NCBI GenBank assembly: GCA_947623735.1
Contig: CANQHE010000006.1
Coordinates: 1 to 44,017 of the forward strand
DNA length: 44,017 nt
Direction: 5' to 3'
Origin: an uncultured Bacilli bacterium
GTDB lineage: Bacteria > Bacillota_I > Bacilli_A > RF39 > UBA660
Below the pieces are notes generated by a model that ran no database searches, had not been told where the DNA came from, and saw only the letters and a list, made by a program, of their open reading frames with translations. Of this stretch, positions 9,620-31,629 are shown piece after piece. How positions within the stretch are numbered: the first letter of the stretch is position 1; every line of letters begins with the position of its first letter. The translations under genes and the position numbers were made by a program.

Positions 9620-11647
9620 TTAATCAGTTACTACTATATAAGGATTAGTTCTTGTTCCTGAATCTCCTTCACCATCAACTGTAAATTTTGTATCAGCTTT
9701 CAGATTTATTACTGGGCGCACACCAAGGACATGGTTGTACACGAGGGTGTCGTCGAGGTAGCCACTATCAGTCACATAGAACACGCGAGCACTGCTGCCG
9801 CTGTACATGCGAGACGGAGACATTGTCCAATAGTATTGATTTGTATATAACCAATAACCATTATTTGCTTGACCAGCAAATCCTCCGGCATATATTACTT
9901 CATCCATTGTGATTAAACCAACTGGCACTGGTAAGGCTCCATTTCCAGTTATTGTTGTTCCATTACTTCCTTTTGTTCCATTTGCATTTGCACCTGGTCC
10001 GGTATATAAATCTCTTTTTCTTGATGCATCATCTTTACCGCATTTTAATGTAGGTGTTTGTTCAGTTGAATTCCAACTTGTACTATTTGATTGCCATACT
10101 CTATCTGCTCCAGCGTATGCTGTTTGCTGTGTTCCAAAACCTTGTCCTGTTCCGGGATAACTACTTCCATGGTTGGTAGTTGATATTGTTGTATCACTAC
10201 AAAATCCTGTATCTACATCGATGTAATTTGTTGCTAAACTACTTAAATTCGTATTATTTGTATACCAGTTCTCTATTTCGTCTAATACTGTACTTTTTGT
10301 ACTACTACTTGTTACTTTGTGTGCCTGTTCATGACTTGTTGACACTGTTGGATCATTATTATACATATATCCTACATATTTATTATCATTATATTTTTCA
10401 TTAAAATAAACTGACTTTGGATAACTATTATTTGCTGGCGTTCTTGGCGTTATCATTGTATCAGCTCCTTGAGTACTAGGAGCGGTTTTATTACTACTAC
10501 TTGTTCCAGCGTATATCAATCTTATTGTTCCATTGCCATTTATCCGGATAATCCTCCACCATAGATAATTTGCACCACTCTTATCTTTTCCAAATACTAC
10601 CCAGTTATTACTTACTGTTCCACGATAATAATAACTTGTTCCAAAGTCATCTTCTGCTTCATACAAACCATTTTCTGAAACTTTACAGCTTCCGCCACAT
10701 GACGTTCCAGTGAATTTATCTACCTTTCCTTGTGAATCGCCACTTATTCCTAAGTTTGCTAATGTTTGTTTACTAGGATTATATTCATCAAAATATAAAT
10801 AACATTCTGTTCCACTTTGGGTTAAACTTGTTACAAGTAGGCCATTTTTATTATTGTCCCAACTTGGTACTGCTCCATTACTACATTGACTTTCTTTACT
10901 TAAAGTGTAATTTCCCTCTGGTATTGTTTGACTTTCTTCATATTTTCCTGTCTCTTCATTATATACATTAATGGCTAGAATATTTACATCAGGTTCAATA
11001 TTTGATGGTTCTACTGTTACTTCGCCTTCAAATCCATACCCCATATCGAGATTTTGACTTTCATTTAAGTTAGGATATTCTAGTACTACATAATAATACC
11101 ATGATGTTCCTTTAGATGTTGATGTTATAAATTCATTTGATGCTAGTGTTACTGTTATTTCTGAACTATTACCTTTTATTGTTCCTTCACTTATTGATTC
11201 TCCAAGTGATGTTATATTTGATATTTCACACTCTTCATACATCATGATGCCACCTGAAACATTTTTCTTTATTTGATTACAACTTGCATCTACATCTACA
11301 TTATCACTTACTTTGTATACTGTAAATTTTAAATCAGTGTTTAAATTATTTGTTCCCTTCCATACTAAATTATAAGGAATAAGTTCATTATTACCAATCG
11401 CTGTTACAATAATTCCTGAGACATCTTTATGTCCTGGCAACATTCCATCATAATCAAAGTTTAATGTACCTGTTACTGTTACTTTAGAATTTTTTAATTC
11501 AGCTGTTGTGACTGTCGTGGTTGCTCCACTTCCCTCAGTCAGCATTCTTCCGACAAAATAAGCAAAAGTAAAACCACCAAACACTAAAAGTATTCCTACT
11601 AATATTAATAATCTTTTATTCTTTTTCATAACTTTACACCTACTCAT
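9620..11647 (-). CDS. Secreted/anchored surface protein with C-terminal lectin-like variable domain (cassette copy 1)
   Basis: N-terminal hydrophobic segment LLILVGILLVFGGFTFAYF; C-terminal WWRIIRINGNGTIRLIYAGTSSSNKTAPS...YWTMSPS...GVRPVINLKADTKF shared with 27811-29421. True start probably the ATG at ~11629. Confidence 0.8.
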   Translation of the reverse strand: MSRCKVMKKNKRLLILVGILLVFGGFTFAYFVGRMLTEGSGATTTVTTAELKNSKVTVTGTLNFDYDGMLPGHKDVSGIIVTAIGNNELIPYNLVWKGTNNLNTDLKFTVYKVSDNVDVDASCNQIKKNVSGGIMMYEECEISNITSLGESISEGTIKGNSSEITVTLASNEFITSTSKGTSWYYYVVLEYPNLNESQNLDMGYGFEGEVTVEPSNIEPDVNILAINVYNEETGKYEESQTIPEGNYTLSKESQCSNGAVPSWDNNKNGLLVTSLTQSGTECYLYFDEYNPSKQTLANLGISGDSQGKVDKFTGTSCGGSCKVSENGLYEAEDDFGTSYYYRGTVSNNWVVFGKDKSGANYLWWRIIRINGNGTIRLIYAGTSSSNKTAPSTQGADTMITPRTPANNSYPKSVYFNEKYNDNKYVGYMYNNDPTVSTSHEQAHKVTSSSTKSTVLDEIENWYTNNTNLSSLATNYIDVDTGFCSDTTISTTNHGSSYPGTGQGFGTQQTAYAGADRVWQSNSTSWNSTEQTPTLKCGKDDASRKRDLYTGPGANANGTKGSNGTTITGNGALPVPVGLITMDEVIYAGGFAGQANNGYWLYTNQYYWTMSPSRMYSGSSARVFYVTDSGYLDDTLVYNHVLGVRPVINLKADTKFTVDGEGDSGTRTNPYIVVTD
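9714..9822 (-). other. Hypervariable GC-rich segment (DGR-VR-like) in surface protein copy 1
   Basis: 56% GC by hand count over 9721-9820 versus 30-35% in the flanks; aligned to 27905-28012 the core differences fall at codon positions 1 and 2 only. Confidence 0.6.
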
Positions 11648-11787: not shown

Positions 11788-12219
11788 ATGAATTATGGAA
11801 AAGTTCTAGAACAAATAAGAGAAAGAATTGGTTACACTAAAAATGACATAGCAAAACTTTTGAAAATTGATAAAAGCTTATATGGTCGTTATGAAAATGA
11901 AACTCAAACAATACCTTTAAAACATTTAATAACTCTTGCCAATTTTTATAAAATGACTTTAGATTATTTATTTGGCTTTTCTAAAGAAAATAATTACAAA
12001 AGTCCAATTAAAGAACCCGATAAATTAAAGATAGGGAAAAAATTAAAAAGCATCCGTAAATTTAAAAAAATAACCCAAGCAAGTCTAGCATCACTTTTAA
12101 ACACAACTCAATCTGTTATCGCTGATTACGAACGAGGAAGATATTTAATATCTACTGCCTTTTTATATGCTATATGCAAAAACTATAAAATATCAGCTGA
12201 TTATATAATAAATTCTTAA
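11788..12219 (+). CDS. Double helix-turn-helix (two XRE/Cro-CI-like domains) regulator, cassette copy 1
   Basis: ERIGYTKNDIAKLLKIDKSLYGRYE and KKITQASLASLLNTTQSVIADYERGR; paralogous to 29583-30029. Confidence 0.85.
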   Translation: MNYGKVLEQIRERIGYTKNDIAKLLKIDKSLYGRYENETQTIPLKHLITLANFYKMTLDYLFGFSKENNYKSPIKEPDKLKIGKKLKSIRKFKKITQASLASLLNTTQSVIADYERGRYLISTAFLYAICKNYKISADYIINS

Positions 12220-27810: not shown

Positions 27811-29421
27811 TTAAGATGTTTGGACTACGTATGGATTAGTTGTTGTGCCTGCTGGTTTATCATTATCGAAGGTAAAGGTTGTATCAGCTTTGAGATTTAT
27901 TACTGGGCGCACACCATTATAGTTGTTCACGAAGCCGTAGCCGAGGAGGCCACTATCATACACATAGAACACGCGAGCATCGCTGCCGCTAAAGTGAGAC
28001 GGAGACATTGTCCAATAATACTGATTTGTATATAACCAATATCCATTATTGGCTGTTCCATAAAATCCTCCCGCATGTATTACTTCATCCATGGTGATTA
28101 AGCCTACTGGTACAGGAAGTGCATTATTTCCTTCTACTTTTCCATTACTTCCATTTGTCCAACCACTCGTTGCACTTGGATCTGTATATAAATCTCTTTT
28201 TTGTGCTTCTGTCTTAACTTCTTTTGTACTTAAATCTACTCCACACTTGAATGTAGCAGTTTGTTCATCTGTATTATAACTAGTACTATTTGCCTGCCAT
28301 ACTTTTTCTGCTCCATATACTGTTGCTGTACTTCCATAGCCCAAATTTTCTGTTCCTGAATAAGTACTTCCATGAGGATTTGTTGTATATGTTCTATCTC
28401 CGCAAAAACCTGTATCTACATCTATTTTAGTTGATAAATCTCCTAAATTTGTTTTATTTTCATACCAATATACTATTTCTTGTAATACTCTACTTTGTAC
28501 ATCAGATTTATGGGCTGTATCATAACTTGTACTTGCAACTCCATTTGCTCCCCCATACATATATCCTACATACTTATTATCATCATCATTTGTATTAAAT
28601 CTTACTGATTTTGGATCACTACTAACTGCTGGCGTTCTTGGCGTAATCATTGTATCTACACCGGTTGGACTTGGAGCTGTTTTATTACTACTACTTGTTC
28701 CAGCATAGATTAATCGTATTGTTCCATTTCCATTTATGCGGATGATTCGCCACCAAATATAATTACTGCCTTCTTGTCCAAAGACTACCCAGTTATTTGT
28801 TCCACTTTCTTTTCCTCTATAATAATAACTTGTTCCAAAGTCATCATTTGCTTTACATATCATGGCATTTGTACTCTCTACTCCTGGTATTTTGTCAACT
28901 CCATCTGCACTTGCTTCTGGACAACTTGCATTTATTGTAGCATTCCCAAGTAATGTTTTACATGTTGTATCTCCTTCTTCACATAAAGGTGGTAAACTTT
29001 CTTCAAAATACAAATGACATTTAGTTCCTTTTTTACTATATGGACTTACACTTATTGTTTTACTTTCTTTATCAAAATTTATTGTTAAACTTTCATTCTT
29101 TACATCTTCAAAACTATTATCTTCTTTTGTATACTTCTCCGTACAATAACTTTTTTCTTCATTTATAACATAATTACCATCTTGTATCTCATTTACAACT
29201 TGATAATCACTATCACTTAACCCCTTTACTCTTATTTCTACCAATTCAAAATCAACTAATGTATAGTTAATTGTCCCAGTGGCTAGTTTTCTACTTTCTA
29301 CTAACTTATACTTTGCTCTTGTAAAAAATAAATTTATTACTATTACTAATATAAATGCTATTACAAAGCCTATTAATATTCCCTTTTTCCCATTTACATA
29401 ATTTATTTTCTCAAACTTCAA
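27811..29421 (-). CDS. Secreted/anchored surface protein with C-terminal lectin-like variable domain (cassette copy 2)
   Basis: N-terminal hydrophobic GILIGFVIAFILVIVINLFF; C-terminal WWRIIRINGNGTIRLIYAG...YWTMSPSHFSGSDARVFYVYDSGLLGYGFVNNYNGVRPVINLKADTTF, paralogous to 9620-11647. Confidence 0.8.
   Translation of the reverse strand: MKFEKINYVNGKKGILIGFVIAFILVIVINLFFTRAKYKLVESRKLATGTINYTLVDFELVEIRVKGLSDSDYQVVNEIQDGNYVINEEKSYCTEKYTKEDNSFEDVKNESLTINFDKESKTISVSPYSKKGTKCHLYFEESLPPLCEEGDTTCKTLLGNATINASCPEASADGVDKIPGVESTNAMICKANDDFGTSYYYRGKESGTNNWVVFGQEGSNYIWWRIIRINGNGTIRLIYAGTSSSNKTAPSPTGVDTMITPRTPAVSSDPKSVRFNTNDDDNKYVGYMYGGANGVASTSYDTAHKSDVQSRVLQEIVYWYENKTNLGDLSTKIDVDTGFCGDRTYTTNPHGSTYSGTENLGYGSTATVYGAEKVWQANSTSYNTDEQTATFKCGVDLSTKEVKTEAQKRDLYTDPSATSGWTNGSNGKVEGNNALPVPVGLITMDEVIHAGGFYGTANNGYWLYTNQYYWTMSPSHFSGSDARVFYVYDSGLLGYGFVNNYNGVRPVINLKADTTFTFDNDKPAGTTTNPYVVQTS
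27905..28012 (-). other. Hypervariable GC-rich segment (DGR-VR-like) in surface protein copy 2
   Basis: 53% GC by hand count over 27901-28000; identical flanks and divergent NNY codons compared with 9714-9822. Confidence 0.6.
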
Positions 29422-29477
29422 GTTTATCTTCCTTTCTATTTTATCAAATATATTAGTTTTTTCTAACTTATATTTAA

Positions 29478-29506
29478 ATTATAAACTTGTAAATAGAAAA
29501 AGTCAA
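29478..29506 (-). promoter_or_regulatory. Sigma-A-type promoter for surface protein copy 2
   Basis: TTGACT-N17-TATAAT on the minus strand. Confidence 0.8.
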
Positions 29507-29582
29507 TAAGTTTTGTCGTATAATTCCAGTGAATTAAGACAAATTACAAGAAATATGGCAAAATTTATATGGTGAATATTTA

Positions 29583-30029
29583 ATGTATAGTGAAAAATTA
29601 GAATCTTTAAGAACAAGAATCGGTCTTACTCAAAAGGAAGTAGGACAATTAATTAATTTAGATAGTGGAACTTATTGTCATTATGAAAAAGAAGATTTAA
29701 TCATCCCTCTTAAACACTTAATTACTTTATGTAATTATTATGATGTTTCTTTAGATTATATATTTTCTTTTAGCAATAAGAAAAAATACAATAATTTAAA
29801 AACTAATATCGATATAGCAACAGTTGGTAAAAATCTACTTGCTTTTAGAAAAAAATATAAACTAACTCAAGAACAACTTGCTGAAATTTTAAATACTCCT
29901 CACTCAGTGTTATCTGATTATGAACATGGAAAAAGATTAATTCCAACTCACGCTTTATTTGCTATATGCAAAAAATATAAAATATCTGCTGATTATTTAC
30001 TTGGTAGAATTGATAAAAAGCCCTTTTAG
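29583..30029 (+). CDS. Double helix-turn-helix (two XRE domains) regulator, cassette copy 2
   Basis: TRIGLTQKEVGQLINLDSGTYCHYE and YKLTQEQLAEILNTPHSVLSDYEHGKR; paralogous to 11788-12219. Confidence 0.88.
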   Translation: MYSEKLESLRTRIGLTQKEVGQLINLDSGTYCHYEKEDLIIPLKHLITLCNYYDVSLDYIFSFSNKKKYNNLKTNIDIATVGKNLLAFRKKYKLTQEQLAEILNTPHSVLSDYEHGKRLIPTHALFAICKKYKISADYLLGRIDKKPF

Positions 30030-30209: not shown

Positions 30210-30323
30210 ATGATAAAAGTGATTTTATCCATGATATTATTGTTTATAACAATTAAAAAGGCACTTGTTTTTATCAACATAAAAATTGATATCAACATAA
30301 GTGTCTCCAATACAAAATTGTAG
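30210..30323 (+). CDS. Candidate 37-aa hydrophobic peptide MIKVILSMILLFITIKKALVFINIKIDINISVSNTKL (type I toxin-like?)
   Basis: Upstream AAAGGAGG/AGGTGG; hydrophobic N-terminus with charged C-terminus; ATG lies within hairpin CATGATAAAAgtgaTTTTATC. Confidence 0.4.
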   Translation: MIKVILSMILLFITIKKALVFINIKIDINISVSNTKL

Positions 30324-30420: not shown

Positions 30421-31629
30421 TTATTCTTCACTTAATAACCATTGTACTACATTTATTTTTCTTATACCATCATAATCAGCTTCTAAATCCATATCTAAAG
30501 TAAGTAATACTTTAGGATAATAATCCCCTGTTTTTCGCAATGACTTTAATTCTCTTTCTAAAACTTTCTCATCTCTAACCGATAAAGCAACTTGAAAATA
30601 TTTTAGTCCATCTCTATTTTGCGCCACAAAATCAACCTCTAAATCATCAACTTTCCCCACATATACTTTATAACCCCTTCTAAGTAACTCTAAATATACT
30701 ATATTTTCCAATATATGTCCCATATCACTATCAGCCTTTTTTCCTAATAAATAACTTCTAAGTCCCGTATCTACAACATAATATTTATAATCTCTTGAAA
30801 GTAAATTTTTTCCTTTTACATCAAATCTTTCCGCTTTATATATTAAAAAACTTTCTATAAAGGCTGTTATATAATTTTCTACTGTATGATTACTTGTTGC
30901 CATCCCTTTACTTGTTAATGTATCACTTATTTTTTTAATTGATATAGAACTTCCTATACTATCAAACAAAAACTTTAAGACACTTTCTAATAATAACTTA
31001 TCAGATATATTAACTCTTGCCATTATATCTTTATATACAATCGTTGAAAATATCCCATCTAAATATTTATCTATATCATTAGGATTAGTTTTTAAAATAT
31101 TTATATTTCCTGGCATTCCCCCATTTTTCATATAATCTAAAAATAATTGTTGATAATTATTATCATTAAAAATACTAACATATTCCTTAAAAGATAAAGG
31201 CAACATTTTTATCTCAATATATCTACCTGAAAGTAAAGTTGCAAGTTCTCCCGATAACAAATAAGCATTTGACCCAGTTATATATAAATCAACATTTTTC
31301 TTTATATATAAACTATCTACTGCTTTTTGAAACTCTTTCACATTTTGTACTTCATCTAAAAATACATAATACTTATTTTCAGGTTTTATTTTATTATTTA
31401 TATACTGATATAACTCTTTATAATCTTTAAAATCATAATTAGCATCTTCTAAATTTATCTCTATAATTTGCTCATCATTAATTCCTATTTTTTTTAAATA
31501 ATTAATAAACAGCAAAAACAAAGTTGATTTACCACATCTTCTTATACCTGTAACAACTTTTATTAAATCTTTATCTTTCCATCTTTTTAATTCTTCAAGA
31601 TAAACAGGTCTTTCTATCAATTTTATCAC
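30421..31629 (-). CDS. AAA ATPase with DUF4143 domain
   Basis: VVTGIRRCGKSTLFLLF; YYVFLDEVQNVKEFQKAVDSLY; ITGSNAYLLSGELATLLSGRYIEIKMLPLSFKEY; C-terminal EVDFVAQ. Confidence 0.92.
   Translation of the reverse strand: MIKLIERPVYLEELKRWKDKDLIKVVTGIRRCGKSTLFLLFINYLKKIGINDEQIIEINLEDANYDFKDYKELYQYINNKIKPENKYYVFLDEVQNVKEFQKAVDSLYIKKNVDLYITGSNAYLLSGELATLLSGRYIEIKMLPLSFKEYVSIFNDNNYQQLFLDYMKNGGMPGNINILKTNPNDIDKYLDGIFSTIVYKDIMARVNISDKLLLESVLKFLFDSIGSSISIKKISDTLTSKGMATSNHTVENYITAFIESFLIYKAERFDVKGKNLLSRDYKYYVVDTGLRSYLLGKKADSDMGHILENIVYLELLRRGYKVYVGKVDDLEVDFVAQNRDGLKYFQVALSVRDEKVLERELKSLRKTGDYYPKVLLTLDMDLEADYDGIRKINVVQWLLSEE

Follow-up and report, generated by a model that had tools for sequence, protein, structure and literature searches.

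The DNA analysed here (the window) is a stretch of 44,017 nucleotides that constitutes contig C6 of the source genome (1,338,852 bases in 77 contigs, 91% complete). Two loci in the window have the same architecture, a surface-protein gene on the minus strand that diverges from a gene encoding a double XRE-type HTH regulator, as the initial annotation had described. At the first locus, a membrane-anchored surface protein of 536 aa with a C-terminal DUF6273-like domain (target 1; 27811-29421, minus strand, TTG start) lies behind a predicted promoter (29478-29506, minus strand; -35 TTGACT, 17 bp, -10 TATAAT) and diverges from a regulator of 148 aa (29583-30029, plus strand). At the second locus, a protein of 675 aa with another N-terminal region and the same C-terminal domain as target 1 (target 2; 9620-11647, minus strand) diverges from a regulator of 143 aa (11788-12219, plus strand). 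The surface proteins were found to be identical at 263 of 495 residues (53%, E 5e-147) and the regulators at 67 of 139 (48%). Each regulator consists of two XRE/HTH_3 domains, in agreement with the two fused HTH domains proposed initially, and the C-terminal motifs quoted at that time are indeed common to both surface proteins, while the N-termini diverge. An AAA_14/DUF4143 ATPase gene (30421-31629), apparently unrelated, follows 3' of the first double-HTH gene, and an intergenic hairpin-like segment (30230-30320; CACTTGTTTTTATCAACATAAAAATTGATATCAACATAAGTG) has no exact copy elsewhere among the loci examined.

The interpretation given to these pairs in the initial annotation is partly supported; what it missed are C-terminal DGR variable regions (VRs). 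In DGRs, a template repeat (TR) and a VR differ almost only at template adenines, Avd or an equivalent is present and the RNA 3' of the TR is structured; the VR lies near the C-terminus within a C-type-lectin fold, and the TR is usually, not invariably, adjacent to the RT. In the targets the VR corresponds to the C-terminal ~35 codons, at positions 27904-28005 (minus strand; TCTCCG...GTGCGCCCA) in target 1 and 9713-9820 (minus strand) in target 2. Alignment of the two window genes at the DNA level revealed a high GC content in the final ~100 bases of the variable block, and the two VRs have the fixed blocks GCGTGTTC and GGTGTGCGCCCA in common with variation in between. Since the last ~35 codons are DGR variable regions, the variation is attributable to a named mechanism; the earlier statement that no named system was known does not hold for the diversification, and only the layout looks new. 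The targets carry an N-terminal hydrophobic anchor, as judged from sequence. The lectin-like fold expected for the C-terminal domain was borne out only to the extent of weak resemblances to C-type lectins, DUF1566 and DUF6273 (E 5e-5 for the latter, at the Pfam cut-off), and the model of the domain (pLDDT 77) gave no significant PDB match (best E 0.28; best viral match E 2e-5).

A search for further pairs, as had been suggested, showed that the module is multi-copy, well beyond a coincidental resemblance between two loci. In the source genome 67 stretches match the surface protein, representing about 57 distinct ORFs that total 97.9 kb (7.3% of the 1.34 Mb assembly), together with about 30 full-length relatives of the double-HTH protein. 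A divergent target lies at most 1.1 kb away for 29 of 33 HTH hits, with a gap of typically 160-180 bp. Both families were found, in multiple copies, in all 24 sampled congeners and in 0 of 15 genomes from other genera of the class. The target core promoter (TTGACTTTT...CTATAATTTA) is nearly identical in most of 16 aligned divergent gaps. Because of the divergent arrangement, a role as local repressor or switch is probable for the double-HTH protein. Gene-specific palindromic operators were sought in the same AT-rich gaps and discarded, as one of 16 regions scored above shuffles and none was clear. On five contigs of the source genome (G000 C27, C13, C5, C54 and C63), target ORFs of ~750-1035 aa contain the variable domain twice in tandem, which gives each of these proteins two VRs.

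Among the genome regions searched, short intergenic copies of the VR block were detected which are rich in AAC codons and end in GGTGTGCGCCCAATATCC followed by a common tail. These copies are DGR template repeats. The source genome contains 12 TRs, of which 11 have the exact common tail and the twelfth, on C44, belongs to a second family. Comparison of VRs with their best templates revealed a strong preference for adenines: target 1 differs from the C18 TR (~146-256) at 17 of 33 adenines and 1 of 69 other bases, with one 3-nt gap, and target 2 from the C10 TR (TR8) at 21 of 35 adenines and 7 of 73 other bases. For the C44 target and the C44 template the values are 19/35 and 0/66, and for a C4 target 23/35 and 2/66 against its template. 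Twenty of 37 VRs, chosen on the non-adenine side (mismatch <15%), differ from their templates at 47% of adenines versus 7.8% of other bases (p 1.5e-93); in 39 VRs taken without selection the values are 48.5% and 20.8% (p 2e-68). The remaining 17 of the 37 VRs had no good match among the TRs found in the genome, and the 15% cut was passed by 1 of 14 VRs sampled in the congener G014 and 2 of 11 in G016; the templates of poorly matched VRs may be missing, drifted or inactive. Both TR and VR possess a GTGTGCGCCCA junction followed by ATATCC (TR) or GTAATAA (VR), reminiscent of IMH and IMH*, where TR and VR agree as far as a G/C-rich end and diverge beyond it. A stem-loop 3' of the VR was sought in four VR 3' flanks, none of which folded above shuffles; in BPP-1, such a stem-loop immediately 3' of the VR is stimulatory and not strictly required. 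The second template family (C44:4786-4947) has different wobble bases, ends in AATGCGTTGCGGCC and has two targets of its own, with VRs at C44 ~1083 and C4 39036.

These data bear on the initial proposal of an individually regulated antigen or adhesin repertoire, read as varying by ordinary paralogue divergence and recombination, with no dedicated mutator. The large paralogous family, the divergent N-termini and the paired HTH genes fit such a reading, but it leaves unexplained the restriction of differences to adenines, the GC-rich VR blocks matching intergenic TR RNAs and the DGR operon described below. The TR/VR adenine bias contradicts ordinary divergence as the sole cause, which we regard as the least probable of the explanations considered, with hardly any weight.

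The TRs are embedded in a structured RNA. A segment 3' of the TR is folded, and the TR RNA comprises 39 pairs, 16 of which show compensatory changes. In the tails, ATATCC and GGATAC form a stem that carries an inner arm; there is also a small hairpin, and a terminator hairpin precedes a run of T's. A closing helix is formed between the 5' motif GGGTTAATCT and AGATTAATCC downstream of the first stem; all 10 pairs are present in 54 of 65 TRs, and the 65 TRs together form 628 of 650 pairs compared with at most 605 in 10,000 permutations. A -10 box is located ~12-15 bases upstream of the TR 5' motif and is perfect in 40 of 73 cases. With its -10 box, covarying closing helix and tail hairpin, and terminator, each TR looks like a transcription unit of its own. 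No Rfam family covers the TR RNA, the only matches in the loci searched being tRNAs and group II introns. The TR tail was not found in the IMG/VR viral contigs and thus shows no sign of phage carriage. A fixed pairing of TR arrays with target/HTH cassettes was considered and dismissed, as most TRs have no target or HTH gene found nearby; on C1 and C12, a TR is convergent with an HTH gene at a distance of 12-26 bp.

The source genome encodes two intact DGR RTs of 370 aa, on C28 and C57, both with LPIGNMTSQ and YMDD motifs; an (I/V/L)GxxxSQ motif in region 4 is the signature of DGR RTs (PMC3521204). The C28 RT matches RTs of Bordetella phages, and among PDB entries its best match is the reverse transcriptase 8ub7 (E 5e-29). 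We take 8ub7 to be the BPP-1 enzyme. The C28 RT is preceded by an Avd gene (NCBIfam DivGenRetAVD NF033474, E 2.8e-9; PHROG phrog_3206 'Avd protein of DGR', E 1.5e-14; Pfam bAvd PF22296, E 1.5e-9, just under the family cut-off) and a gene for a 151-aa protein with MutS domain I (MutS_I, E 1.1e-5). The lineage has at least 18 other loci with this MutS-I-like/Avd/RT order, across which Avd identity is mostly 85-93%. Contig C57 ends just upstream of its RT, which possibly serves the second template family. C12 encodes a third RT, which belongs to the group II intron type, carries a QGxxxSP motif (TPQGGNLSP) and adjoins intron RNA; group II introns lie at C12:28713-31621 and C44:1-167. The named relatives of the RT stem from gut MAGs labelled uncultured Bacilli, Mycoplasmatota or Tenericutes and from Candidatus Caccenecus avistercoris.

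Neither window locus contains a TR or an RT and both are therefore targets in trans. Drawing on sequence inference from draft MAGs, as does all of our evidence, we conclude that the window pairs very probably belong to a repertoire of ~57 membrane-anchored proteins that a DGR targets in trans at their C-terminal tips. A largely fossil network, in which the RT was once active and the TR/VR patterns are decaying remnants, would agree with the state of the RT in several congeners: it is broken by stops or frameshifts in G007 (C43), G010 (C50) and G021 (C51), where targets persist, and it was not found in the draft genomes G009, G012 and G015, which keep their TRs. Breakage of the RT with persisting targets points to repeated decay of the system; the RT of Candidatus Caccenecus avistercoris is frameshifted as well, again with targets retained, and many VRs have drifted at non-adenine sites. 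On the other hand, the source genome retains uninterrupted reading frames for both DGR RTs, including the SQ and YMDD motifs, the Avd and RT sequences show strong conservation between species, and some VR/TR pairs combine 17-23 adenine changes with 0-2 others, which argues for recent transfer. A fossil network is therefore unlikely, and it is still the strongest of the competing explanations.

A covariance model identified TR RNAs in 21 of 24 congeners (22 of 25 with the source genome), at 2-25 per genome, and no TR RNA within the examined flanks (mostly several kb) of ~20 RT loci in the genus; counts and linkage both come from draft MAGs, in which fragmented assembly can distort them. The same TR RNA occurs more sparsely in other genera of the family, where a DGR RT was present in all 12 TR-bearing genomes checked. 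In five of these related genomes (G183, G124, G113, G136 and G084) the TR lies beside the RT as in a canonical DGR, and in G077 one TR lies beside the RT and eight are dispersed. The RT-linked TRs suggest that the template was released from a canonical cassette and expanded, and the related genera, as far as their sequences tell, may form an evolutionary series towards dispersed templates. This homology also bears on gene conversion of the pilS/vls type, in which the TR-like elements would be silent donors used by RecA-type recombination with no reverse transcription. Arrays of partial, unexpressed copies alongside many expressed paralogues would fit such a system; however, its donor-recipient differences are not limited to one template base and it involves no RT. 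Here, all 19 substitutions in one pair and 17 of 18 in target 1 fall on template adenines, a DGR RT and Avd are present, and the putative donors code for folded RNAs, have a promoter and a terminator, and are homologous to the RT-linked TRs of related genera. On the basis of the adenine-restricted differences and the DGR RT we rejected silent-cassette conversion, which we consider very improbable, if marginally less so than ordinary divergence.

The likely mechanism, by analogy with BPP-1, is mutagenic retrohoming in trans. The MutS-I-like/Avd/RT operon and the second DGR RT would use the RNAs of at least 12 free-standing template genes. Each RNA is predicted to start just after the -10 box at GGGUUAAUCU, which would pair with AGAUUAAUCC downstream of the TR, so that a closed domain would hold the TR, the IMH*-like junction (GTGTGCGCCCA) and a stem-loop, followed by a hairpin and an intrinsic terminator. 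RT-Avd would copy the TR with errors at adenines, as in BPP-1, and the cDNA would replace the VR of any matching target. The double-HTH protein may repress the adjacent target such that few variants are displayed at once. The products might bind ligands of host, bacterial or phage origin, or their variation might serve to avoid being recognized; such ligand binding or antigenic change are guesses.

The closest parallel is the DGR of the Bordetella phage BPP-1 (PMC12875486, PMC3240598), for which mutagenic retrohoming has been described and a reconstitution in laboratory E. coli carried out (PMC12875486). It shares with the present system an RT with the SQ motif, an Avd protein, a C-terminal VR, TR-to-VR differences specific to adenines, an IMH-like junction and RNA structure 3' of the TR. 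The single TR of BPP-1 lies between avd and brt and serves one local target, whereas here 12 free-standing TRs and dozens of targets are present, no TR was found near the RT within the flanks examined, a MutS-I-like gene is part of the operon and no VR 3' stem-loop was found in the four flanks analysed. The Tvp DGR of Treponema denticola likewise acts on several remote surface-protein targets, up to 7 in one genome, but its main type has a single TR and a single RT without a template-RNA array (PMC4891356). Remote dispersed VRs are also known from cyanobacterial DGRs, with 18 loci of TR/VR homology in Trichodesmium; according to the accessible parts of these reports, the TRs stay in DGR cassettes, unlike here (PMC8867640, PMC7517822). 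Thiohalocapsa PB-PSB1 has several DGRs per genome, for which trans action was argued from sequence; the portion of that paper available to us lists nine loci, of which several have a TR and an RT to themselves, and does not describe stand-alone multicopy TR genes (PMC10907252). The multi-TR DGRs of Yan 2019 have more than one TR and many VRs, DUF1566 targets included; the largest case quoted, in Pseudomonas costantinii, has 6 TRs and 91 TR-VR pairs and is atypical with few A-to-N changes, and the accessible text reports no solitary folded template genes (PMC6642488). In the literature outside subscription papers and preprints, we found neither a description of solitary folded template genes in arrays nor a paper linking these bacteria with DGRs. 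By its own account, the metagenomic search of the largest DGR survey would miss DGRs whose VR does not adjoin the RT (PMC8144416).

The mechanism is thus a known one, that of DGRs, in an architecture which we did not find described in the searchable literature. The broader reading towards which we lean, with clearly less assurance than for the trans targets themselves, is that of a distributed DGR. In one gut Bacilli lineage, its template RNA would have left the RT cassette and multiplied, giving rise to self-contained genes for folded template RNAs, each driven by a promoter, and tandem arrays of up to 25 per genome would serve the RT-Avd-MutS-like operon in trans, rewriting a surface-protein repertoire that runs to dozens of members, many of which are paired with a double-HTH regulator of their own, with the template library itself evolving. 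The usual description of a DGR is that of a compact locus whose single template adjoins the enzyme. This minimal 1.3 Mb genome gives 7% of its sequence to DGR-type targets, which would be run from many unlinked template RNAs, and diversity would arise at two levels, namely which template is used and then which adenines are changed. If active, the system would give a gut commensal a hypermutation network of many templates and many targets and would offer a natural collection of portable template RNAs of the DGR type, and the series of genera from RT-linked to fully dispersed templates would make the evolution of trans-DGRs and RNA recognition testable.

The templates themselves also vary. Differences between TRs are mildly adenine-biased, affecting 27% of adenines versus 17-24% of other bases here and 41% versus 18-29% in G014; because this bias is mild, retrohoming into the TRs is only an idea. 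The congener G014 carries about 13 tandem template RNAs within ~3.4 kb (C20:22674-26088). Many templates of this array are adenine-poor, as if mutated themselves, and two have identical cores, indicating recent duplication.
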